The notes under the pieces were generated by a model. The model worked only from the letters and a program-made list of their open reading frames with translations, was not told the origin of the DNA and ran no database searches. This document shows, one piece after another, positions 1 through 28,149 of a stretch of DNA of 64,000 bases; within the stretch, counting starts at the first letter, position 1, and each line of letters opens with the position of its first letter. This stretch comes from Nitrospirota bacterium (GTDB taxonomy: Bacteria; Nitrospirota; Thermodesulfovibrionia; Thermodesulfovibrionales; UBA9159): the NCBI GenBank assembly GCA_021790195.1, contig JAJYIF010000016.1, positions 1 through 64,000 on the forward strand. The letters are read 5' to 3'. Both the position numbers and the translations under genes were made by a program.

Positions 1-1572
1 CTGTCCAATCACAAGATTAGCAGTCCCTGAATTTGATACAGTAAAAGTTTGAGGCGATGAAGTACTGCCGACATTGACTGACCCGAAATCAGCGCTTGCC
101 GGAGAAACCGAGATCGCCTGAAAACTTTGAGACGTCAGTGCACGAAAGGCGTTGATCCTACCCCCTGTCATTATTTGCCCGCTGAGAGAGGGCAATGGAT
201 CGACGCTGTTCAGGATTATGCTTCTGACCTGAGAGTACGACAGATTCGGATTTTGACTATAGATAAGACCTGCAAGACCCGAAACAAACGGGGTCGCCAT
301 AGACGTGCCGTTGCAGAACTCATATCCCTTCCAGGGGGAACCATCACAAAAAGGACTGCCCAAGCTTAAGGGAACCGTACTCAGAATGTTTTCTCCGGGA
401 GCCGCGACCTGGACGGAGTTGAGGCCATAGTTGCTAAAAGTAGATTTGTTGTCGCTCTGGTCGGTGGAAGCAACAGAAATGATATTCGCAAGGGCAGGAA
501 GAACTTGTGTGCACTCACCCGGATCTCTCAGACTTGGGTTGTTAAGATATTTGTCGTTTGGGTTGCTGAAGCTCGCGGGGTAACATGGCGAAGTGTCGGT
601 ATCGGCACCGATCCCGCTATCACATAGAGAACCGCCTCCATTGCCCGCAGCGGCCATAAGCAAAACCCCCGAAGAACTGGCCTTCGCTATTGCATAATAC
701 TCTGAACATGAGAAGCTCCCTCCGGCAAAACTTGCGTTCATAATCTTGGCGCCGTTAGCGACCGCAAACTGAATTGCTGAAATCTCATCGGCAGTTGACC
801 CGGTCCCGGTTGCATCAAGGAACTTTACAGGCATGATATGGACGCCCCACATTATACCGGCAATTCCCGTGCCGTTGTTCCCGACCGCGCCTATGATGCC
901 TGAGACATGGGTCCCATGGCCGTTGTCGTCCGTTGTATTGGTGTTCCCAGCAATATAATTATAACCCTGGACAATATTCGAAGAATGATCCAGAGCAAAA
1001 AAATCGGGATGGGTAGAATCGATTCCCGTATCGAGGACCGCCACTATAACATTCCTGCTGCCGGTTGTTATGTCCCAAGCCTGAGTCGCCTTTACGTCCG
1101 CGCCGGAAATGCCCGATATCCCCTCTATAGCCTGACCGGTGTTGAGGAGCGCCCATTGCTGGCCGAAGTAAGGATCGTCAGCCTTCATGGAAGCGCGCTT
1201 CAAATAATTCGGCTCCGCATATTCGACAGTGGGATCGTTCATATATTGTTTAATTGCGTCCTGAACAGAAAGTCCGGCCGGAAGCTTCACATGTTCGAGG
1301 TTCGGCACGACTGAAAACCTCCTGAGCGAGGCTGCCCCCACCGCTCTGTTTGTCTTTGAAGAAGACGCGGCTACAACGCCTGACTTGAATTTGACAAGGA
1401 GTTCCCCCTCTGCGTATTTCCCTTTCCCCATGCCGGACAGGATCGACTCAGCAGCGCCTCTGGCCGAAGAAGCGCCGACTCCCTGAGAAGAGTTCCCGGA
1501 AATACCCGGCGTATTGTCGCTTCCGCAGGACGTCATAAGCAAAACCAGCACAAGATAGATTATCTTCTTCAT
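1..1572 (-). CDS. Secreted S8 (subtilisin-like) serine protease lipoprotein, C-terminus outside window
   Basis: The frame is open from an ATG at 1572 to base 1 (524 codons), so the 3' end is cut off. The N-terminus is a lipoprotein-type signal (MKKIIYLVLVLLMTSC, Cys at 16). A fervidolysin-like propeptide follows (GELLVKFK...VEYAEPNYL, about residues 58-128), then the peptidase S8 domain. The catalytic triad is visible: Asp181 in VLDTGID, His219 in NGHGTHVSG and Ser424 in NGTSMATPF. After the protease domain comes SVSPASADFGSVNVGS, the start of an ASH/choice-of-anchor-D type beta domain. It is a paralogue of the protease at 2331-4307, about 760 bases downstream of it on the same strand with the CPBP protease gene between. 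Likely exported and membrane anchored, degrading extracellular protein or maturing surface proteins. The missing end may carry a C-terminal sorting tail like that of its paralogue. Confidence 0.9.
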   Translation of the reverse strand, partial: MKKIIYLVLVLLMTSCGSDNTPGISGNSSQGVGASSARGAAESILSGMGKGKYAEGELLVKFKSGVVAASSSKTNRAVGAASLRRFSVVPNLEHVKLPAGLSVQDAIKQYMNDPTVEYAEPNYLKRASMKADDPYFGQQWALLNTGQAIEGISGISGADVKATQAWDITTGSRNVIVAVLDTGIDSTHPDFFALDHSSNIVQGYNYIAGNTNTTDDNGHGTHVSGIIGAVGNNGTGIAGIMWGVHIMPVKFLDATGTGSTADEISAIQFAVANGAKIMNASFAGGSFSCSEYYAIAKASSSGVLLMAAAGNGGGSLCDSGIGADTDTSPCYPASFSNPNDKYLNNPSLRDPGECTQVLPALANIISVASTDQSDNKSTFSNYGLNSVQVAAPGENILSTVPLSLGSPFCDGSPWKGYEFCNGTSMATPFVSGLAGLIYSQNPNLSYSQVRSIILNSVDPLPSLSGQIMTGGRINAFRALTSQSFQAISVSPASADFGSVNVGSTSSPQTFTVSNSGTANLVIGQ

Positions 1573-1754: not shown

Positions 1755-2261
1755 TTAGAGTATATCACAAAAGCCGAGAAACACAATGTTAGACAGGAAA
1801 TGGAAGATGGTCGAGGGCAATATATTAGAGGTCCGGCAATAAAGAAAGCCCATGACGATTGAAGGGAAGAAGGTCATAAGAGAATAGGGGTCGCCATAAA
1901 AAATGAGCCTCGGGAGATGAGTGAGGGCAAAGAGAACGCTGACGGCGAGCGCCCCTTTCATGGTGTTGCCGACTCCCTGTTGAAGAAACCCCCTGAAATA
2001 AGCCTCTTCGGGAAGAGAGATCCCGACGAGCTGAAAAAGGGCCGCACTTCCCGGAAGAAAAAAAAAAGGCTTCCCCGCATGCGAGAAGAAAAGAGCGAGA
2101 GGCAGCAACACGACGGCCGATGCGATGACGCCTATTGCGCCGTCCTTCAGAGAGAACTTGAAATTGATCCGTCCCTGAAATAAATATGGAACCGTGTAAA
2201 GGAAAAGGGGGATCGAGTATTTGAATACAGACAGGGAAGAGGCATGATATACGAAAGCCAA
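1755..2261 (-). CDS. CPBP-family glutamic intramembrane protease, MrtJ/myxosortase-like
   Basis: A small, strongly hydrophobic protein of 168 residues from the TTG at 2261. It carries the three CPBP (ABI/Rce1-like) active-site motifs in order: EEAYFR (Glu85, Glu86, Arg90), FALTH (His115) and HFLSN (His154, Asn158). This family cleaves substrates within the membrane; some members are dedicated sorting proteases for Cys-containing C-terminal tails (the MYXO-CTERM and JDVT-CTERM systems). The gene lies directly downstream of an S8 protease whose last 35 residues form such a tail, so a dedicated processing role is inferred. The start is uncertain. The same frame is open for 23 more codons up to the stop codon of the upstream gene, encodes hydrophobic residues just before the TTG, and contains no ATG or GTG. 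A CTG at 2310-2312 preceded by AAGGA is one alternative. Confidence 0.82.
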   Translation of the reverse strand: MAFVYHASSLSVFKYSIPLFLYTVPYLFQGRINFKFSLKDGAIGVIASAVVLLPLALFFSHAGKPFFFLPGSAALFQLVGISLPEEAYFRGFLQQGVGNTMKGALAVSVLFALTHLPRLIFYGDPYSLMTFFPSIVMGFLYCRTSNILPSTIFHFLSNIVFLGFCDIL

Positions 2262-2330
2262 CCCGAAAAGTATCGGGTATGTATATAATGCCTTTTTCCC
2301 CTGACTATTCAGTCTGCAGTTGTCCTTCTG

Positions 2331-4307
2331 CTATCTCTTGTTCTTCCGCCTCAGGACCGCGATGAAGAGCAGAGGCGTAAGCAGTATCAAAGTGTCTGCA
2401 AAAGCAGTCGGGGAATTCTGCCTTGCTCCGATGGAGCATCCCCCTCCTCCGCCGCCCGAAGAAGTTTCAGGGGCCGGCGAGTCTCCGGACAAGGTCGTTT
2501 GAGAAACTTCCACCGGGTTCGACTCAGCAACAGGAGCGCCACTGCCCGGGGGGTCCGGAAGCTGGCTGAATGCCGTAAGCCGGTAATAATAGGTCGTAGA
2601 TGGGCTTAGTCCTGAATCCGTAAAGGAAGCAGTACCGCGATACAATGTCACGATTCGAACAAAATCGCCGCCTGAAACCTTTCGCTCGATAAAGAATCCG
2701 TCCTCACCCGTAGAATTGATTGTCCATGATAGAGAGATCTTATCAGATGAAAGAGGGGTGGCAACAAGGTTCGTTGGAGCCAACAAGGAAGAGAGGGCCT
2801 TAAAAGCATTGATCCTCCCGCTAGTGAATATTTTGTCCTTAACCGTCTCCAATCCTGGATATCCATCTTCCGCCTTGTCAACATACTTCAATATCATGCC
2901 GCGCACCTTGGTATAGCCATACGGATCCGTCATAAATCCGGGATAAGCACTGTAAAGCAGTCCTGCAAGACCGGATACAAACGGGGCGGCCATCGACGTA
3001 CCGCTACAATAATCGTAATCCGCAAACTCTGAGCTTGTGCAGACTGAGATGAAAGAGGACGCGACACCGGCTGAGGGGACTGTGCTCAGGATATAAGTGC
3101 CGGGCGCCGCAACGTGAACGGAAGCGGGTCCAAAATTGCTGAAGGCCGCCAGACGGTCGTTCTGGTCAGTAGCGGCCACGGAAATGATATTCGGAAGGCT
3201 GTATGACGCTGGATAGTAAGGAGCAATGTCGTTGTTCGTACCGTTGTTGCCGGCGGCGGCTACAAAAAGAATATGAGCAGCGTTTGCGGCCGCGATCTCA
3301 TCTTCCAAAGATTGAGAGAAAACATTACCGCCAAGGCTGGCGTTTATTACTTTCACGTTCTTCGAGACCGCATATTCTATGCCCTCTTCTATCGCACCGA
3401 GCGGACAGCCGCCCAGAGACACGTCGCAAACCTTCAGCGCCATTAACTGCACTTTCCACATCAGACCTGCGATACCAAGGTTATTGTTCCCCACAGCCCC
3501 TATAATTCCCGCTACATGCGTGCCGTGCCCCCAGTCGTCAAAGGGGTCGTTGCAATTCTCATTCTTCACCGGATCTTCCGGGAACTGATCGCAAACCCCG
3601 TTGCCGTTCTTGTCGACAAACACAAAATTCCATCCCCTCCAGTCATCCACTTTTCCATCCCCGTCGTCGTCCACTAAGTTGGTGCGCTTGTCATGTCCTG
3701 ATGCGTCAGAACCCGTTTCTCCCGGGTTCGTCCAGATATTTCCAGCAAGATCAGGGTGCGTATAGTCTATTCCTGTATCGAGGACCGCGATGACGACACT
3801 CCTGTCGCCGGTGGTTATATCCCATGCCTTCGGCGCTTTGATATCGTCTGATGCGGTGCCGCCGGCAAAGCCGCTATTCTGCAAGGCCCACTGCTGCGGG
3901 CTGAAAGAGGTATCATTGGGAATGATGGAGGGAGAAAACAAGTAATTCGGTTCTGCGTAAACTACGTTCGGGTCGGACATATATCTTGTAACAGCATCCT
4001 TTACGGATAAGTTTGCCGGAAGTTTCACCTGCTGAAGGTTCTGAACGAGCGCAAAATTCCTGATCAGTGAAGCCCCAATGCTCTGATTTATGCTCGAAGA
4101 CGTTGCGGGCGTCACGTCAGGCTTGAACTTGACGAGGAGCTCTCCATCTTTATAGCTCCCCTGATCCATAGCAGACAATATAGACTGAACGGAAACCTTT
4201 GATGAACTGGAAGATATAGGAGCATCGGAAGAAAGGCTTGTTGTCTTGCCGCTTCCGCAAGACGCCAATAAAAGAACCATGAAAAGATGAAGGATCTTGT
4301 TTCTCAT
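2331..4307 (-). CDS. S8 serine protease lipoprotein with FN3 domain and Gly-Cys C-terminal sorting tail
   Basis: A protein of 658 residues; the ATG at 4307 is chosen because AGGAGAGGAT sits just upstream and the lipobox signal MRNKILHLFMVLLLASC starts there. Order: signal peptide (Cys17), propeptide (about 54-123, DGELLVKF to AEPNYL), S8 domain with Asp177 (VLDTGID), His261 (WGHGTHVAG) and Ser438 (SGTSMAAPF), an acidic Ca-binding-like insertion (DDDGDGKVDD), and a fibronectin type III domain (about 515-610). The C-terminus is GGGGGGCSIG, then a hydrophobic helix, then RRKNKR, with Cys 35 residues from the end. This tripartite tail is typical of CTERM-type protein sorting signals. The CPBP protease encoded immediately downstream in the same frame is the obvious processing candidate. 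Having both an N-terminal lipobox and a C-terminal sorting Cys is unusual. Confidence 0.93.
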   Translation of the reverse strand: MRNKILHLFMVLLLASCGSGKTTSLSSDAPISSSSSKVSVQSILSAMDQGSYKDGELLVKFKPDVTPATSSSINQSIGASLIRNFALVQNLQQVKLPANLSVKDAVTRYMSDPNVVYAEPNYLFSPSIIPNDTSFSPQQWALQNSGFAGGTASDDIKAPKAWDITTGDRSVVIAVLDTGIDYTHPDLAGNIWTNPGETGSDASGHDKRTNLVDDDGDGKVDDWRGWNFVFVDKNGNGVCDQFPEDPVKNENCNDPFDDWGHGTHVAGIIGAVGNNNLGIAGLMWKVQLMALKVCDVSLGGCPLGAIEEGIEYAVSKNVKVINASLGGNVFSQSLEDEIAAANAAHILFVAAAGNNGTNNDIAPYYPASYSLPNIISVAATDQNDRLAAFSNFGPASVHVAAPGTYILSTVPSAGVASSFISVCTSSEFADYDYCSGTSMAAPFVSGLAGLLYSAYPGFMTDPYGYTKVRGMILKYVDKAEDGYPGLETVKDKIFTSGRINAFKALSSLLAPTNLVATPLSSDKISLSWTINSTGEDGFFIERKVSGGDFVRIVTLYRGTASFTDSGLSPSTTYYYRLTAFSQLPDPPGSGAPVAESNPVEVSQTTLSGDSPAPETSSGGGGGGCSIGARQNSPTAFADTLILLTPLLFIAVLRRKNKR

Positions 4308-20589: not shown

Positions 20590-22128
20590 TTGCTGAAGCA
20601 GTCCGTGCTTAAAGAAATACGTCACCTGAGTTCCGAGGACCTGCCGAAGGTCCCCTTCGTTGTAGATGGGGTGTCCTCCCGCTTCATCCGAGAGTATATG
20701 GTGATCCCTCTGGAACTAAAGAACAATGTCCTGAAGGTTGTCATGGCAAATCTTGAGGACAGGCAGACACTGGACGCCCTGAGGGTCGCCACCTCGGCCG
20801 ATATCGCGGTATATACCGCGGACACGAAGGTCGTGGAGGAATACATATCGAGGTTTTACGGACAGGAATCGCAGAACATAAACAGGATAATCGAAGACAT
20901 CGGCGAACACGACATCGAATTCATCCGCGAGGAAGAGGAGGACATCGGCCATCTCAAAGACCTTGCTGCGGAAGCTCCTATCATAAAGCTCGTGAATCTG
21001 CTCATAACGAGGGCCGTTGAGGGAAGGGCAAGCGACATACATATAGAGCCTTTTGAAGACGAGATGAAGGTCAGATACCGGATAGACGGCGTGCTCCACG
21101 ACATAGAATCCGCGCCGAAGCGGCTCCAGGCGGCAATCGTCTCAAGGATTAAGATAATGGCCAAGATGAATATCGCCGAGAGAAGACTCCCCCAGGACGG
21201 TCGCATTCGTCTTAAGGTCGGGGAGGGAGAGATCGACCTGAGGGTCTCGACTATCCCGGTGCTCCACGGAGAGAGCGTGGTCATGAGAATCCTTCGGAAG
21301 GAAGGCATCGTAATAGACCTCGATCTCCTTGGGTTCCCGGCTGACACCCTCGGGGGCTTCAACCAGCTTATCGCCAAGCCGCACGGCATAATCCTTGTCA
21401 CCGGCCCCACGGGCAGCGGAAAGACCACTACGCTTTACGGCGCACTGGACAAGATAAATTTTCCGGACAGGAAGATTATAACCGTAGAGGACCCTGTTGA
21501 ATATCAGCTTAAGGGAGTGAACCAGATACAGGTGAAGCCGCAGATCGGCCTGAACTTCGCAAGCACGCTCAGGCACATCGTGAGACAGGACCCCGACATT
21601 ATCATGATCGGGGAGATAAGGGACCTCGAAACAGCCGAGATAGCCATACAATCCGCGCTGACCGGACATCTCGTCTTCTCGACACTGCACACAAACGACG
21701 CGCCGAGCGCCATCACAAGACTCATCGACATGGGAGTGGAGAACTTCCTGCTCTCTTCCACCATCAGGGGTATACTCGCGCAGAGGCTGGTCAGGGTACT
21801 CTGCCATGCATGCAAGGAGATCGATCATGCCTCCGCAAACAGGGATGAGCTGAGCATCCTCGGTCTCGGCAGCGATGCGACCCTTTTCAGGGGAAAGGGC
21901 TGTGAGCAGTGCACGTTCACCGGCTATTACGGAAGGACGGGGATATTTGAACTCCTCATGGTGACCGAGGGAATACGCAAACTGATCCTCAAGGGGTCGG
22001 ACGCCAACGAGTTAAGGGACGCGGCGAGGCAGCAGGGAATGCGCACCCTTTTCGAAAACGGGGCCGAGAAGATAAAGTCCGGGGTCACTACCCTGAGCGA
22101 GGTCCTGAGGGTCACGCAGGAGGCATAG
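20590..22128 (+). CDS. gspE: Type II secretion ATPase
   Basis: A protein of 512 residues, the hexameric ATPase that powers pseudopilus assembly. An N-terminal GspE domain (1-140) precedes the motor domain with Walker A GPTGSGKTTTLYG (about 272), Asp and His boxes, Walker B GEIRDLETAEIA and the tetracysteine zinc finger (CHAC about 404, CEQC about 439), which is typical of GspE and PilB. The TTG at 20590 abuts the GGAGG element with no spacing, so the start is uncertain; no in-frame ATG is near. It ends right before gspF. Confidence 0.95.
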   Translation: MLKQSVLKEIRHLSSEDLPKVPFVVDGVSSRFIREYMVIPLELKNNVLKVVMANLEDRQTLDALRVATSADIAVYTADTKVVEEYISRFYGQESQNINRIIEDIGEHDIEFIREEEEDIGHLKDLAAEAPIIKLVNLLITRAVEGRASDIHIEPFEDEMKVRYRIDGVLHDIESAPKRLQAAIVSRIKIMAKMNIAERRLPQDGRIRLKVGEGEIDLRVSTIPVLHGESVVMRILRKEGIVIDLDLLGFPADTLGGFNQLIAKPHGIILVTGPTGSGKTTTLYGALDKINFPDRKIITVEDPVEYQLKGVNQIQVKPQIGLNFASTLRHIVRQDPDIIMIGEIRDLETAEIAIQSALTGHLVFSTLHTNDAPSAITRLIDMGVENFLLSSTIRGILAQRLVRVLCHACKEIDHASANRDELSILGLGSDATLFRGKGCEQCTFTGYYGRTGIFELLMVTEGIRKLILKGSDANELRDAARQQGMRTLFENGAEKIKSGVTTLSEVLRVTQEA

Positions 22129-23322
22129 GTGGCCACCTTTTCTTACAGGGCGACCACGATGGAAGGCGCCATCGTGGAAGGCGTCGTCGAAGCGGCGGAC
22201 GAGAAGACCGCAGTCGAAAAACTGAGGAACACAGGCGTTATCCCCTTGAAGGTCTCCTCCCCGAGAGAGGGCGGGAAGCTAGGGTTTTCCCTGAGACCCC
22301 ATAAAGGCGACCTCCTTATCTTCACTACAGAGTTGTCCGCGCTCCTGGGCGCGGGCCTTCCCCTCGACAGGAGCCTGAACATCATCTCCGAGATATCCGA
22401 AAGCAGGGAGATGAAAAGTGTGATACAGTCCACCCTCAAATCCATCAGGGAGGGGAGCTCCTTCTCCGACGCGCTCCAGAAACATCCCAGGATGTTTCCC
22501 AAGATTTATATAAGCATGGTGCGCGCAGGCGAGGCGGGTGGCGTGCTCGACGTGGTGCTGGAGAAGCTGAATGAGTTCCTGGAATCCTCTAAAGAGCTGA
22601 AAGAGCATGTGGTTTCCGCCATGATCTATCCGGTCATACTCACGGTGGCAGGCGGGGCATCCATTATTTTTCTCCTCACCTTTGTCCTTCCGAAATTCTC
22701 GTCCATCTTTGCAGAGCTCGGCACTTCCTTGCCGCTTGCCACGAGGATCGTCCTCGGCGCAAGCAAGGCGATCAAGCTTTATTGGTGGGTTGCCCTTCTG
22801 GTGGGAGTGCCCGGCTGGACCCTCTTCAGGAGCTATCTCAGGTCCGCCTCCGGCAGGTATAAATGGGACGCCTTCAAGTTGACGCTAATGGGCGAAGTCA
22901 TCAGGAAACTCGAGACCGCCCGTTTTTCGCGGACCCTCGGCACCCTTCTCAAGAGCGGTGTGCCGCTGCTGCAGGCCCTCGGCAATGCAAAGGACGTTAT
23001 AAACAACCAGGTCATCGCCTCTTCCATAGACGCGGTCGCAAAGGGCGCCAAAGAGGGCAAAGGCATAGCGGTCCCGCTGACGAACTCCAACGCTTTTCCG
23101 CCCCTCGCTCTTTCCATGATCAAGGTCGGCGAGGAGACGGGTCAGTTGGACACCATGCTATTGAAGGTCGCCACTACTTATGAGAAGAGCCTCAGGCTTG
23201 CGGTGAAGAGATTCGTGAGTTTCCTCGAACCGGTAATGATCCTCATAATGGGTCTCGTTATAGGCTTCATCGTAGTATCCATGCTTATGGCCATATTCAG
23301 CATAACCCAGCTGCCGTTTTAA
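22129..23322 (+). CDS. gspF: Type II secretion inner-membrane platform protein
   Basis: A protein of 397 residues with two GspF/PilC four-helix domains (about 68-190 and 270-390), each followed by membrane helices, ending GLVIGFIVVSMLMAIFSITQLPF. GAGLPLDRSLNII and VRAGEAGGVLD are conserved. It starts with GTG immediately after the gspE stop; CAGGAGG five bases before it confirms this start. Confidence 0.95.
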   Translation: MATFSYRATTMEGAIVEGVVEAADEKTAVEKLRNTGVIPLKVSSPREGGKLGFSLRPHKGDLLIFTTELSALLGAGLPLDRSLNIISEISESREMKSVIQSTLKSIREGSSFSDALQKHPRMFPKIYISMVRAGEAGGVLDVVLEKLNEFLESSKELKEHVVSAMIYPVILTVAGGASIIFLLTFVLPKFSSIFAELGTSLPLATRIVLGASKAIKLYWWVALLVGVPGWTLFRSYLRSASGRYKWDAFKLTLMGEVIRKLETARFSRTLGTLLKSGVPLLQALGNAKDVINNQVIASSIDAVAKGAKEGKGIAVPLTNSNAFPPLALSMIKVGEETGQLDTMLLKVATTYEKSLRLAVKRFVSFLEPVMILIMGLVIGFIVVSMLMAIFSITQLPF

Positions 23323-23326
23323 TCCC

Positions 23327-23824
23327 ATGCCTGATATAAGGCACAAGATTCGCGGTCAGCGTCACAATGCAGCAAGAATCATGCATCGTGCATCTTTTTC
23401 GGATGGTTTTACTCTCCTCGAAATGATCATCGTGCTGTTCCTGGTGTCGATCATGCTCGGCATAGCAGGCGTCTTCTTCTCCAAAACGCTATCCTCCAGT
23501 AAACTTGATGCCGCGGCAAGAGAGATTTCCGCGGCTATAAGGCAGGCGAAGTCTATGGCCGCGACAAAGGGCGAGAAAGAGACCGTTACAATAAACCTGG
23601 ACTCGAAACAATACGGGATACCAGGACGTGGAAGCAGGAGCCTTCCCCGGGACGCCCAGGTCATGGTCATAGATCCCTTTTCGGGAGAGATACGAAGCGG
23701 GGAATACAATATTACCTTCCAGCCCTACGGAGGAGTGCAAGGAGGCACGGTCGTCCTGTGGAACGGCAAAAAGACCGTGAGCATACAGTTAGACCCGGTG
23801 ATAGGATCCACCGTAATAAAATAA
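23327..23824 (+). CDS. gspH: GspH-like minor pseudopilin
   Basis: A protein of 165 residues. GFTLLEMIIVLFLVSIMLG is a type III prepilin signal cut by prepilin peptidase between Gly and Phe; Glu at mature position 5 is present. The soluble part ends with the beta-rich ...KKTVSIQLDPVIGSTVIK, as in GspH/FimT. With the ATG at 23327 the leader is 27 residues; an internal ATG at 23381 would give a more usual 9-residue leader. The extra N-terminus includes short ATGCATC-type repeats. Confidence 0.85.
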   Translation: MPDIRHKIRGQRHNAARIMHRASFSDGFTLLEMIIVLFLVSIMLGIAGVFFSKTLSSSKLDAAAREISAAIRQAKSMAATKGEKETVTINLDSKQYGIPGRGSRSLPRDAQVMVIDPFSGEIRSGEYNITFQPYGGVQGGTVVLWNGKKTVSIQLDPVIGSTVIK

Positions 23825-24259
23825 ATGAAGAAGCGCACTCTGTCTTCTCTTAGTTCAGGTCTTCCGGTCTTGAGATCCGGCGCAGGCTTTACGCTTTTTG
23901 AAGTGCTTATAGCAGTAGCCATCCTGGGCATTGCGATAACGATGGTCCTTCAGCTCTTCTCGGCCGACCTGAGGTCGATCTCCGCATCTGAGGACTACGT
24001 CTCTGCTGCCGTAACAGCCGAGGCAAAGATGAGGGAGGTGCTCGACGATGATCAGCTGTCCGAAGGGTCTTCCTCCAGCGAGACGACTAGCGACGGATAC
24101 AGGACAACCGTGTCGGTCTCCAAGACGCTCGAAGACAGGACGGAGAATCTCCCCGTAGAGCTCCTCAATATAACGGTCACCGTATATTGGACAAAAGGCC
24201 TGGGAGAGAAGTCCCTGACCCTGAATACGATGAAGATGGTTGCGAGGCAGATAGACTGA
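23825..24259 (+). CDS. gspI: GspI-like minor pseudopilin
   Basis: A protein of 144 residues with the prepilin signal AGFTLFEVLIAVAILG at about 20-35. In type II systems GspI forms the pseudopilus tip with GspJ and GspK. It begins directly after the gspH stop, and its stop overlaps the gspJ start. The identity as GspI rests on order, size and the signal; the soluble domain alone is not diagnostic. Confidence 0.83.
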   Translation: MKKRTLSSLSSGLPVLRSGAGFTLFEVLIAVAILGIAITMVLQLFSADLRSISASEDYVSAAVTAEAKMREVLDDDQLSEGSSSSETTSDGYRTTVSVSKTLEDRTENLPVELLNITVTVYWTKGLGEKSLTLNTMKMVARQID

Positions 24260-24933
24260 TGCGTGATCCATATATGAGAACGATAGCGAACAAGATCCCA
24301 TCCCTGCGGACTTCGCTTTCCGGAGAAGGCTTCACGCTTCTCGAACTCGTGATATCGATCGCGATCATCGGCATAATCGTGCTTATCATCTCGGGCGCTA
24401 TGAGACTCGGCTTCCGCTCCGTGGAAGCCGGCGAGAAAAAGATCGAGTCCATCGAAAGGACAACGGCATCCCTCAGCATCCTTGATGCCCAAATCCAGTC
24501 TGAATGCCCGGTTACGTATACCGACGAGGACGGCTCCAGGCGATATTATTTCAAGGGTGACAGGACTTCTATGGTGTTCTCGACGAACTATTCCCTGTGG
24601 AGCGGTGAGACAGGCTATGTCCTGGTCCATTACTCGGTCGCTCCCGACGATTCAGGACGGCAGTCCCTGTTTGTGTCCGAGAACCTTATCGGCATCGACA
24701 GCATGAGGGAGACGAAGCTCTTCGAGGCCTTCGACGAAATATATTTCGAGTATTTCTACAAAGGCCCCACGGATGAGAAGGGGAACTGGGTCGATGAATG
24801 GACAGAGGACACCGACATTCCGGAGAAGGTTAAAGTGCACCTTGTACAGGGGACAAGGGACATCTCCCTGATCATCCCGATGAGGGCAAGGGGAACGCTC
24901 GTCCCTCAGGGGTTGATTCCTCCCCAGACTTAG
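24259..24933 (+). CDS. gspJ: GspJ-like minor pseudopilin
   Basis: A protein of 224 residues starting at the ATG that overlaps the gspI stop (TGATG), preferred to an upstream in-frame ATG at 24187 inside gspI. The prepilin signal is EGFTLLELVISIAIIGIIVL; the soluble domain has the YFKGDRTSMVF and LVHYSVAPD stretches seen in GspJ. It is part of the presumed GspI-J-K-H tip complex. Confidence 0.85.
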   Translation: MRDPYMRTIANKIPSLRTSLSGEGFTLLELVISIAIIGIIVLIISGAMRLGFRSVEAGEKKIESIERTTASLSILDAQIQSECPVTYTDEDGSRRYYFKGDRTSMVFSTNYSLWSGETGYVLVHYSVAPDDSGRQSLFVSENLIGIDSMRETKLFEAFDEIYFEYFYKGPTDEKGNWVDEWTEDTDIPEKVKVHLVQGTRDISLIIPMRARGTLVPQGLIPPQT

Positions 24934-24941
24934 CTTTGACT

Positions 24942-25925
24942 ATGAGAAGAACTTCCTATAAACATTACGGGATCAATTCGAGCGCCATTGAGACACATGA
25001 GGCGGGCGTAGCCCTGATCATGGTGCTTTGGGTGCTTGCTATCCTGATGGTCATAGCGCTCTCTTTCTCGTATCTGACAAGGACCGAGACCCATTCGGCG
25101 CTCTCTTTCAAAGAAGGCGTGGAAAGAAAATTCCTGGCCGAGGCCGGCGTCGAGAGGGCACTGACAGAGATCTTTTACAGGAGACAGAACTTCGCTATCG
25201 AAGGAAACGATTCCTGGAAAGTGGACGGCACGCCCCATTCAGACCATCTTGGAGACGGTGAATATACTGTGAAGATCACTGACGAGACCGGGAAGATAGA
25301 CATAAACGCCATAAACGACAATTCTGGTATAATACTCAAGAATCTGCTGATGAACTCCGGCGTTCAGGAAGAGACTGCGAACACCATCGTAGATTCGGTC
25401 CTTGACTGGAAAGACAGCAGCAGTACAGGGGCGCACCGGCTCAACGGCGCTGGCGATGATTACTACATGTCTTTGCCGAACCCCTACAAAGCCAAACATG
25501 CTAATTTTGACACACTGGAGGAACTCCTGCTGGTGAAGGGCATTACCCCCGAGATACTTTACGGCGACAGCGAGAAGAAAGGTATCATCAACTTTCTCAC
25601 GGTTTATTCCAACATGCCTACAATTAATGTGAACGCGGCGCCGAAAGAGGTGCTGATGGCCGTTCCGGGTATTACTCCGGAGATCGCCGACGCGATAATA
25701 AGTTTCAGGGAAAACAAGAGAGTGACCAATTTTCAGGAGGTGGGCATACCGCCTCAAAGCGCACAGTATATTAATTTTTCGGACAGTTACGTATTCTCGA
25801 TAGAGTCTGTAGGAAAGAAGAGCGACGGCAAAGCGGGTTATCCGGTGAAGGCGACGGTTAGGCTCGATGCGAATAATAAGTACAGGTTTGTCTATTACAA
25901 GAGTCCGGCGGCGGTGGGCGGATGA
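24942..25925 (+). CDS. gspK: GspK-like pseudopilin tip protein
   Basis: A protein of 327 residues from the ATG at 24942 (a TTG lies two codons upstream; neither has a ribosome binding site). After a short leader comes GVALIMVLWVLAILMVIAL, the degenerate prepilin helix of GspK. GKIDINAIND, the Ca-binding region, and a helix-hairpin-helix-like NVNAAPKEVLMAVPGITPEI segment confirm the family. It overlaps gspL by four bases. Confidence 0.92.
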   Translation: MRRTSYKHYGINSSAIETHEAGVALIMVLWVLAILMVIALSFSYLTRTETHSALSFKEGVERKFLAEAGVERALTEIFYRRQNFAIEGNDSWKVDGTPHSDHLGDGEYTVKITDETGKIDINAINDNSGIILKNLLMNSGVQEETANTIVDSVLDWKDSSSTGAHRLNGAGDDYYMSLPNPYKAKHANFDTLEELLLVKGITPEILYGDSEKKGIINFLTVYSNMPTINVNAAPKEVLMAVPGITPEIADAIISFRENKRVTNFQEVGIPPQSAQYINFSDSYVFSIESVGKKSDGKAGYPVKATVRLDANNKYRFVYYKSPAAVGG

Positions 25926-27463
25926 CGGGGACTATTGCTGCCGAAAAACTCTTGTCAGTCCTGTCGGACTCTGCCGCAAAGCTAAAGAGACTTTGGCGCC
26001 CCCTGCAGAGACTGCTCACGTTCAGCCTTGCCGACGAGAGCATTTCACCGGCGAAAAATGTCTCGGTTTCGATCGACAAGGGGTCAGTGTCCGTTGCTTA
26101 CGGTTCGAGATTCCTTTCGCGCATACGCGTCAAAGGGATCAAGACCTACCCCCTCGACGACAGGTATCCTACTCCGGAGGGCCTTGCATCGTCGGTGTCG
26201 ATGGCCCTGAGTAGTTTCCGGGTTTCAAAGACGGCAATAACCCTGAGCGTGCCCAAATCGTGGGTAGTCATAAAGCTTGCGGAGTTCCCCATCACTGTAA
26301 AGGACAACCTCCCGGATGTTGTTTCCTATGAGATGGACAGACTGACGCCCTTCTCTTCGAGCGAGGCCCTTTATGATTCAAAGATACTGAAAGAGGAAGG
26401 CAATAAGCTCACCGTCGTTATTGTTGCGGCCAAGTCCGACTTGATAAACCCTTATATAAATGCGCTGGGAGAACGGGGTTTCAGCGTCGGCAGGGTCACG
26501 ATAAACCTCGCCGGGCTGGAGACGCTTTGTTCGTATTCCGGCAAGCCCGGTGACGCCCTTATCTTCAAGATAAGCGGGAAGGAATACGAAGCGGGACTCT
26601 TCTCGGGAGGCCTTGTCACCGCCGCGATAACAGGGAGTCTGGGAGAGGGGGACGAGAGGTCCCGGATTGACGCGATTATAAGTGACATGGAGATGCTCAT
26701 GCAGGAAGGGAGGAAACAGGGGAAATCGCCCGGTGTAATTCTTTCCATGAAGGACTGCAGTCCTTCATTCAGAGAGATGTTGAAGACAAGAATGGATTTG
26801 CCTTACAAAATACTGGAAGAGAGCTGCAGCACCCTAGGTCTTTCGGCGGAAGAGATCCGCTACGAGGCGGCCGGTGGAATATTTTCATCGCTCTGGCCCG
26901 CGGCAAGCGGATTGGACCTTTTGAAAAAAGGCCGCCTGGAAAAGGCAACGATCCCCCTGACGCTTTCGGTGGTTCTCGTTTCCGCAATATTGGCGATATG
27001 GATCGTCTCGGTCTTCGTTCCGGTGAGCGTTGAGGAAAGGAGGCTCGCCGATATCCAGGGCGAGATCGCAGCGAGAAAGGCGGAGGTCAAGAAGATCGAG
27101 ACGCTGCAGACGGAAGTCGCGGCGGCTGAAAAGGACGTTTCCGATATTGAAAACTTCAAGGGCGGCAGGCCGATGACCCTCGATGTCCTGAAGGAGCTCA
27201 CACGCGTTCTCCCGAAGACGACGTGGCTTTCCCGCGCGAGGATCACAGAGACGACAGTGGAGATAGAGGGGTACTCGGCCTCTGCCACGGAGCTCCTTCC
27301 GAAACTCGAGGCATCGAAATACTTAAGGAAGGTTGAATTCGCGTCTCCGACCTTCAGGGACGTCAGGATGAATTCGGAGCGGTTCAACATAAAGATGGAT
27401 ATAGAGGGCGCCCAGAAGATCGAGGTAAAACAGCCGGCGGCCGGAGGCGCCGTCAAGAAATGA
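25922..27463 (+). CDS. gspL: GspL-type assembly protein (PilM-like domain fused to PilN-like domain)
   Basis: A protein of 513 residues. The N-terminal actin-like part (about 40-330; SVSIDKGSVSVAYG, ITLSVPKSWVVIKLAEFP) resembles PilM/GspL cytoplasmic domains; one membrane helix (LTLSVVLVSAILAIWIVSVFV, about 345) precedes a PilN-like coiled coil and ferredoxin-like domain (LKELTRVLPKTTWLSRARI). In type IV pili these are two proteins, so here they are fused as in GspL. It links the ATPase to the pseudopilus base. Overlaps both neighbours by four bases. Confidence 0.88.
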   Translation: MTGTIAAEKLLSVLSDSAAKLKRLWRPLQRLLTFSLADESISPAKNVSVSIDKGSVSVAYGSRFLSRIRVKGIKTYPLDDRYPTPEGLASSVSMALSSFRVSKTAITLSVPKSWVVIKLAEFPITVKDNLPDVVSYEMDRLTPFSSSEALYDSKILKEEGNKLTVVIVAAKSDLINPYINALGERGFSVGRVTINLAGLETLCSYSGKPGDALIFKISGKEYEAGLFSGGLVTAAITGSLGEGDERSRIDAIISDMEMLMQEGRKQGKSPGVILSMKDCSPSFREMLKTRMDLPYKILEESCSTLGLSAEEIRYEAAGGIFSSLWPAASGLDLLKKGRLEKATIPLTLSVVLVSAILAIWIVSVFVPVSVEERRLADIQGEIAARKAEVKKIETLQTEVAAAEKDVSDIENFKGGRPMTLDVLKELTRVLPKTTWLSRARITETTVEIEGYSASATELLPKLEASKYLRKVEFASPTFRDVRMNSERFNIKMDIEGAQKIEVKQPAAGGAVKK

Positions 27464-28149
27464 ACAAGAACAGAACGCTTATCATCGGCATACCCCTCAT
27501 ACTGATGCTATTCGGTCTTGTCATCTACCGTTACGGATATCTGAGGGCGCATACGGAGATAGCCTCCATCCGGGAAGAGCAGTCAATGGGCGAGAAGACC
27601 CTCGGAAAGTATGTGGCGCTCATCGCCGAGAAACCGCAGCTTGAAAAGAGACTCGCGCAATTGACGGAAACGCGCAAGGCCGACGATGCCAAACTCATAG
27701 AAGGTCAGACCCTTTCCTTGGCGGCTGCGAACCTGCAGGACACGGTAAAAGGCATAGTTTCTTCGAGAGGGGGGACCATATCCAGCGAAAGGGTCGGCAA
27801 GCCCGAAGACCTCGACAAGTTCAAGGTCATAACTACCTCCATCGACGCGGTTGTCCCGGATGTGAGGGCGCTCAGTGATATCCTTTACTCCATCGAGACC
27901 CAGACCCCGTATCTCGTCGTAAAGGAGCTCGACACGAGGGTGAGGGACTTCAGAAATCCGAGAGAGCTCATGATAAGAATGGATGTCTCGGCCTTGACCC
28001 GGCCCGGAGAAATAGTGCGCCTGCCGTCTCAGGAGCCGGGGATCAAAGGTCAGAAGCCGGGGGAGAAGCAGATCAAGGGCCCGGCGGAGAAGGAGAAGGC
28101 CGGCGTGCCTGCGCCTCCTCCTCACGAGGCCGGGGCTCCGGGGAAGTAG
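27460..28149 (+). CDS. gspM: GspM/PilO-like assembly protein
   Basis: A protein of 229 residues with one N-terminal membrane helix (LIIGIPLILMLFGLVIYRYG), a coiled coil (about 35-80) and a ferredoxin-like fold (VITTSIDAVVPDVRALSDIL...TPYLVVKELDTRVRD), the layout of GspM/PilO. The last 40 residues are Pro/Lys/Gly-rich and look disordered. It is the last gene of the cluster. No gspC, gspD or gspG follows. Confidence 0.87.
   Translation: MNKNRTLIIGIPLILMLFGLVIYRYGYLRAHTEIASIREEQSMGEKTLGKYVALIAEKPQLEKRLAQLTETRKADDAKLIEGQTLSLAAANLQDTVKGIVSSRGGTISSERVGKPEDLDKFKVITTSIDAVVPDVRALSDILYSIETQTPYLVVKELDTRVRDFRNPRELMIRMDVSALTRPGEIVRLPSQEPGIKGQKPGEKQIKGPAEKEKAGVPAPPPHEAGAPGK

Follow-up and report, generated by a model that had tools for sequence, protein, structure and literature searches.

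A CTERM-type tail and a neighbouring myxosortase-like CPBP protease as a probable sorting pair for an S8 subtilase of Nitrospirota

The window, that is, the whole 64,000-nucleotide stretch of Nitrospirota DNA that was analysed, carries an S8 subtilase precursor gene whose product ends in a CTERM-type tail and, directly after its stop codon and on the same minus strand, a gene for a CPBP intramembrane protease. Do these two genes form a dedicated C-terminal sorting pair, in which the CPBP protein trims the tail near Cys624 and the lipid-anchored subtilase reaches the cell surface? From the sequence anatomy, the conservation of both cysteines of the subtilase, the predicted fold of the CPBP protein and the co-occurrence and adjacency of the two partners, all of which were observed here, we consider that they probably do. 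The features concerned are the following.

1..1572, minus strand: second subtilase lipoprotein, an S8 paralogue, truncated at its 3′ end where the contig stops
1755..2312, minus strand: myxosortase-like CPBP glutamic intramembrane protease, 185 aa, CTG start, AGAAGGA Shine-Dalgarno-like site
2331..4307, minus strand: S8 subtilase precursor gene, 658 aa, identified by its Pfam match
2334..2456, minus strand: C-terminal sorting tail of CTERM type, aa 618-658, from a profile and an alignment of 57 tails
2889..3803, minus strand: S8 catalytic domain, aa 169-473, Pfam Peptidase_S8 (PF00082), 187.8 bits
3945..4172, minus strand: fervidolysin-like prodomain, aa 46-121, PF22148, 51 bits
4257..4307, minus strand: N-terminal lipoprotein signal MRNKILHLFMVLLLASC with lipobox LLASC17
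aa 510-582 of the S8 subtilase: FN3 domain
20590..28149, plus strand: type II secretion genes gspE, gspF, gspJ-like, gspK, gspL/pilM-like and gspM
G000:C2:2-286 (another contig of the same genome): tail, directly before aroC

Along the S8 protein the lipobox Cys comes first, followed by the prodomain and then by the catalytic domain. The lipobox residue, Cys17 (codon 4257-4259), has no Asp at position +2, and the N-terminal signal, lipobox and Cys are together those of a bacterial lipoprotein, Lgt homologues being present in the genome. The C-terminal end, SSGGGGGGCSIGARQNSPTAFADTLILLTPLLFIAVLRRKNKR, is made up of GGGGGGC624SIGARQNSPTAFAD, a hydrophobic helix and RRKNKR, with the Cys624 codon at 2436-2438. 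An earlier, sequence-only reading of this DNA had placed a CTERM-like tail (GGGGGGC624SIG, helix, RRKNKR) and an N-terminal lipobox on one and the same protein, and both are confirmed. The AlphaFold model of the entire protein is of moderate quality (mean pLDDT 67.8) and was used for domain order only, with which it agrees: an N-terminal helix (residues 2-16) is followed by the prodomain, which is folded, by a linker predicted as disordered (124-162), by the FN3 domain and, at the C-terminus, by a disordered Gly-rich stretch that leads into a terminal helix (634-657).

Both cysteines are strongly conserved. The tail Cys is kept in 49 of 50 homologous subtilases, the exception being the truncated paralogue of the window, and every homologue with a complete 3′ end has it; the lipobox Cys is kept in 48 of the 50, the exceptions being two neighbours in a single genome. 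The prodomain is present in 49 of the 50 and the FN3 domain in 46. At the sequence level, the pairing of a lipobox Cys with a tail Cys is thus supported as a conserved property of these subtilases. In the two neighbours without a lipobox Cys, both tailed (L188 169-2001 and 2041-3999, genome G063), the C-terminal Cys alone remains. Across six related genera, pairwise identity is 66% in the tail, 61% in the catalytic domain and 38% in the linker before the tail, and the best conserved part of the tail is the Cys in its GGGGC[SAT][IVLM] context (alignment A4, 57 tails). The complete tripartite tail goes beyond what chance would give, with only two copies in 3.3 Mb (profile E = 4.5e-24); a short degenerate DNA pattern of Gly-Gly-Gly-Cys-Ser-type codons, GGNGGNGGNTGYWSN, is not enriched genome-wide (13 matches vs 16 for the reversed control), and the genome-wide tail counts given here derive from profile searches.

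The CPBP gene had been read as starting with a TTG at 2261, a start that is almost certainly wrong, as it truncates the conserved first helix. No in-frame ATG, GTG or TTG lies upstream of 2261 in this gene. A CTG (2310-2312, minus strand) has a counterpart at the same place of the alignment in about 11 of the 18 homologues that were inspected, those named being L126, L127, L129, L131, L133, L170-L172 and L174, and the first helix is intact in the fold predicted from it (mean pLDDT 95.4). On these two grounds the start is almost certainly the CTG at 2312, from which Glu85/86 of the earlier numbering become Glu102/103. The EExxxR, FxxxH and HxxxN motifs are intact, as had been noticed from the sequence, and the key residues E102/E103, R107, F128, H132, H171 and N175 are invariant in 70 homologues. 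The S8 and CPBP frames abut or overlap in several homologues, which would fit translational coupling. The CTG start itself may reflect deliberate low expression together with such coupling.

The CPBP protein is predicted to have the Rce1 fold. Its Pfam Rce1-like domain is recognised with 60 bits (cut-off 22.4), and the model aligns from end to end with MmRce1 (4cad; VIA Z 14.0, rmsd 3.0, 180 residues aligned). The top structural match is SpdC (6u0o; VIA Z 14.6), and the next row (Z 5) is unrelated. These two proteins were found by the slower VIA alignment; Foldseek of the same model against PDB gave no match at E<=0.001, and a profile of the CPBP set gave none at E<=0.01 against PDB sequences.

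Does the CPBP gene go with the tail? When the searches used models derived from the window's family alone, 50 of the 230 genomes of the class had the CPBP protein and 42 had the tail (39 with both, 11 with CPBP only, 3 with tail only, 177 with neither; p = 1.8e-30, for genomes that are not independent of one another). The broader profile A4, built from 57 tails, matches in 49 of the 230 and gives 44/6/5/175 in the same order (Fisher p = 7e-35, to be read with the same dependence in mind), a count that is somewhat circular because some of the tails were located beside a CPBP gene. Several exceptions are incomplete genomes. One of the six with CPBP and no tail match at E<=1e-4 (G020) has a divergent tail, and the tail-only genomes are mostly incomplete, with one case being a broken 41-aa frame. 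Such co-occurrence with Cys-containing tripartite C-terminal tails is the mark of the myxosortase family, and the lack of it, which the sequence-only reading had named as the outcome that would speak against the pairing, is not what the 230 genomes show. At 30 of the 50 CPBP loci a tailed gene lies within 400 nt of the CPBP gene. Three arrangements occur (upstream on the same strand, 20; convergent, 9; downstream on the same strand, 6), and in the CPBP tree one group is mostly tandem and another mostly convergent. Several families have the tail gene away from the CPBP gene. Taken as a whole, genome content and gene order support the tail and the CPBP gene as a conserved pair.

The locus had also been described as a single-substrate module followed by a paralogous S8 lipoprotease. 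The paralogue is indeed present (1-1572), but its 3′ part is off the contig, and the part in the window stops within the first third of a HYDIN/VesB-type (choice-of-anchor-D) Ig-like domain. The contig C2 opens in the second half of the same Ig domain type, continues with the tail SSGGGCSIGGKENASSAVADSAVLLIPFIAVALLRRRRQ and then reaches aroC. Five related genera share the order S8(tail)-CPBP-aroC, three of them also having mfd and a TPR gene upstream, and the window contig reads mfd-TPR-cdd-S8-CPBP-S8′ before it breaks off. Since no sequence overlap was found between the window contig and C2, their join rests on synteny and domain content; the tail on C2 very probably belongs to the window paralogue, which would give S8-CPBP-S8′. 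Such a sandwich, with both subtilases tailed, occurs at five other loci (L127, L132, L136, L137 and L140). The single-substrate description is therefore given up in favour of two tailed proteins, the second very probably being the subtilase paralogue, and two tailed proteins per genome are found in about a third of tail-positive genomes.

Within the Nitrospirota class, tailed proteins are nearly all subtilases. Temptin-like proteins of genus g83, in which no lipobox was seen, also carry the tail and are a second client type. Four of these temptin-like tailed proteins are L178 5986-7296, L180 4845-6203, L182 4279-5514 and L198 3387-4973, some with CxxCH-like motifs. The named CPBP records are from Nitrospirota, plus a separate clade in Dadabacteria and Desulfobacterota, whose genomes encode as many as about nine tailed proteins each, most without a subtilase motif. 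These proteins (L255-L274, genomes of L046-L064, Dadabacteria/Desulfobacterota) have GGGC[SAT][IVL] tails and occur alongside the homologous CPBP protein, a multi-client version of the system.

This range of clients bears on whether the CPBP protein acts on the tail at all. CPBP proteins are known that act in immunity or regulation, as in some bacteriocin loci, and, together with SpdC as the top structural match, they allow the CPBP protein to be seen as a self-protection or regulatory protein for the subtilase, with the tail as an ordinary transmembrane anchor. We regard this as highly improbable, because the CPBP gene goes with the tail also on non-S8 proteins (temptin-like in g83; without subtilase motif in Dadabacteria), the catalytic residues are all invariant in the 70 homologues, and a plain anchor would not keep GGGGCS[IV]G...N..TA.AD.

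If the two genes do form a sorting pair, to which of the known systems do they belong? The sequence-only reading had compared them with the MYXO-CTERM/myxosortase and JDVT-CTERM/MrtJ arrangements and proposed a search of tail and CPBP protein against the CTERM and Mrt models. The CPBP protein is indeed myxosortase-like and matches exist for both partners, but in NCBIfam (June 2026) the window proteins fall under the cut-off of every CTERM or Mrt model. All 70 CPBP homologues match Mrt_core (NF040914), MrtS, MrtC, MrtP, MrtZ and MrtJ, and 68 match MrtX; the best Mrt_core match among them has E 7.5e-24. The window CPBP reaches 57-60 bits on Mrt_core against a cut-off of 100, and scored singly neither it nor any of ten other homologues passes an Mrt cut-off. 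The two other CPBP proteins of the genome reach 22-28 bits on Mrt_core and are clearly less myxosortase-like.

For MrtX / MYXO-CTERM, the CPBP protein scores 33-35 bits against 180, and 7 of 57 tails match TIGR03901 (best E 0.014). For MrtJ / JDVT-CTERM, it scores 39.3 against 75 bits and the tail 14.3 against 27 bits. JDVT-CTERM is nevertheless the best model for the tails, with a weak match in 37 of 57 (best E 2.8e-5), and among the CPBP models MrtS gives the window protein its highest score, so that the pair could be a JDVT-CTERM/MrtJ or Synerg-CTERM/MrtS system that has drifted below the curated thresholds. This is unlikely in our view: the window scores are all about half of the cut-off or less (66.5 bits vs 130 for MrtS), the Synerg-CTERM model is matched by a single one of 57 tails (E 0.024), and the best model differs between homologues, being MrtS in most of those from Nitrospirota and Mrt_core or MrtP in others. 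Because the window proteins fall under every cut-off, we class the pair, by sequence, as a new sub-branch of the myxosortase kind, distinct from MrtX, MrtJ and MrtS; as a member of the CPBP superfamily it would work like the myxosortase system, with no curated model that covers the sub-branch. Apart from Haft 2024 on JDVT and related signals, where a passing mention is possible, we found no Nitrospirota CTERM/subtilase system in the literature.

The closest known systems differ from it in instructive ways. GlyGly-CTERM / rhombosortase (VesB, Vibrio cholerae) has in common with it a surface serine protease, a Gly-rich tail, a helix, a basic end and a T2SS link, and the window paralogue shares the HYDIN/VesB-type Ig domain with VesB; however, the processing protease of that system is a rhomboid, and an invariant Cys is not known to define its signal. 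JDVT-CTERM / MrtJ (NF033191 / NF033192) shares the two-gene neighbourhood of protease and client and the Gly-rich Cys motif, but it is found in beta- and gamma-proteobacteria rather than in Nitrospirota and Dadabacteria, and here there are two clients, which are subtilase lipoproteins. Synerg-CTERM / MrtS (TIGR04564 / NF040589) provides the best protease model and a protein of similar length (170 and 185 aa), but hardly any of the tails match its tail model. MYXO-CTERM / MrtX (TIGR03901 / NF040593, Myxococcus xanthus) shares the Gly-Cys motif, the helix, the Arg-rich end, the CPBP protease, the presence of a T2SS and surface proteases among the clients (PMC11980579); it serves 35 client proteins, whereas here there are one or two, usually beside the protease gene. 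MrtX cleaves MYXO-CTERM clients, requires the Cys and functions in E. coli, while lipid attachment to the C-terminal Cys before cleavage is a proposal of the same study (PMC11980579).

For cleavage, lipidation, propeptide loss and surface location in the present system we infer the following course. The S8 protein would be exported by Sec as a lipoprotein precursor, with Cys17 lipidated via the LspA route, while the tail helix would hold its C-terminus with RRKNKR inside the cell. Cys624 would receive a lipid from a general acyltransferase, most likely before cleavage, and the glutamic, Rce1-like CPBP protease would cut the tail near or after Cys624. Anchored in the membrane by lipid, the subtilase could then reach the cell surface, probably through type II secretion; the T2SS cluster, with GspE and GspM over cut-off, lies ~18 kb from the S8/CPBP module, the gspD secretin is elsewhere in the genome, and this system is a candidate outer-membrane exporter. 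The prodomain would be removed after secretion, and self-processing would strip the N-terminal lipid.

Two Lgt genes are present (G000:C54:25044-25775 and C11:57765-58496), as in five of six other genomes of the family. A duplicated Lgt as the dedicated lipidating enzyme was considered and rejected: most tail-bearing genomes of other families have a single Lgt gene, Lgt copy number shows no association with the tail (10/46 vs 29/157 in an approximate count, p = 0.67), and this comparison across the class revealed no dedicated lipid transferase linked to the tail. The search result is compatible with a variant in which the CPBP protein cuts the tail and Cys624 is never lipidated, so that the tail does no more than keep the precursor at the inner membrane, while the final product is anchored by its N-terminal lipid or, after self-processing, secreted without any. 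Cys17 is about as conserved as Cys624, and a lipid on the C-terminal Cys is hypothesised in PMC11980579, which also leave room for it. We think it rather unlikely, since the part of the tail that is kept best is the Cys in its GGGGC[SAT][IVLM] context, and since an N-terminal anchor is unlikely to last when a prodomain separates Cys17 from the enzyme. The tail helix could also stay in place as a plain transmembrane anchor, an outcome counted against the sorting pair.

Returning to the sorting pair with a lipidated Cys624, that position of the prodomain means that the N-terminal lipid may leave with the propeptide, and the C-terminal lipid would be the lasting anchor of the mature protease. We therefore put forward, tentatively and as somewhat more doubtful than not, an anchor hand-over in which the N-terminal lipid is lost with the prodomain and a lipid on the C-terminal Cys, which the dedicated myxosortase-like enzyme would have exposed, then holds the active protease at the surface.

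In summary, the pair adds an unmodelled myxosortase-like clade, mainly from Nitrospirota with kin in Dadabacteria and Desulfobacterota, whose client set is small and mostly of a single type, the subtilases. Its two-gene unit of small protease and client could be transferred to E. coli, and since the normal lipobox of the client is an internal control, a possible action of Lgt on the C-terminal Cys would be open to a direct test. Should both ends carry a lipid, this would be an unusual double-anchored secreted protease, and if the hand-over is true, two lipid anchors would be used in succession on one protein with its own sorting enzyme.
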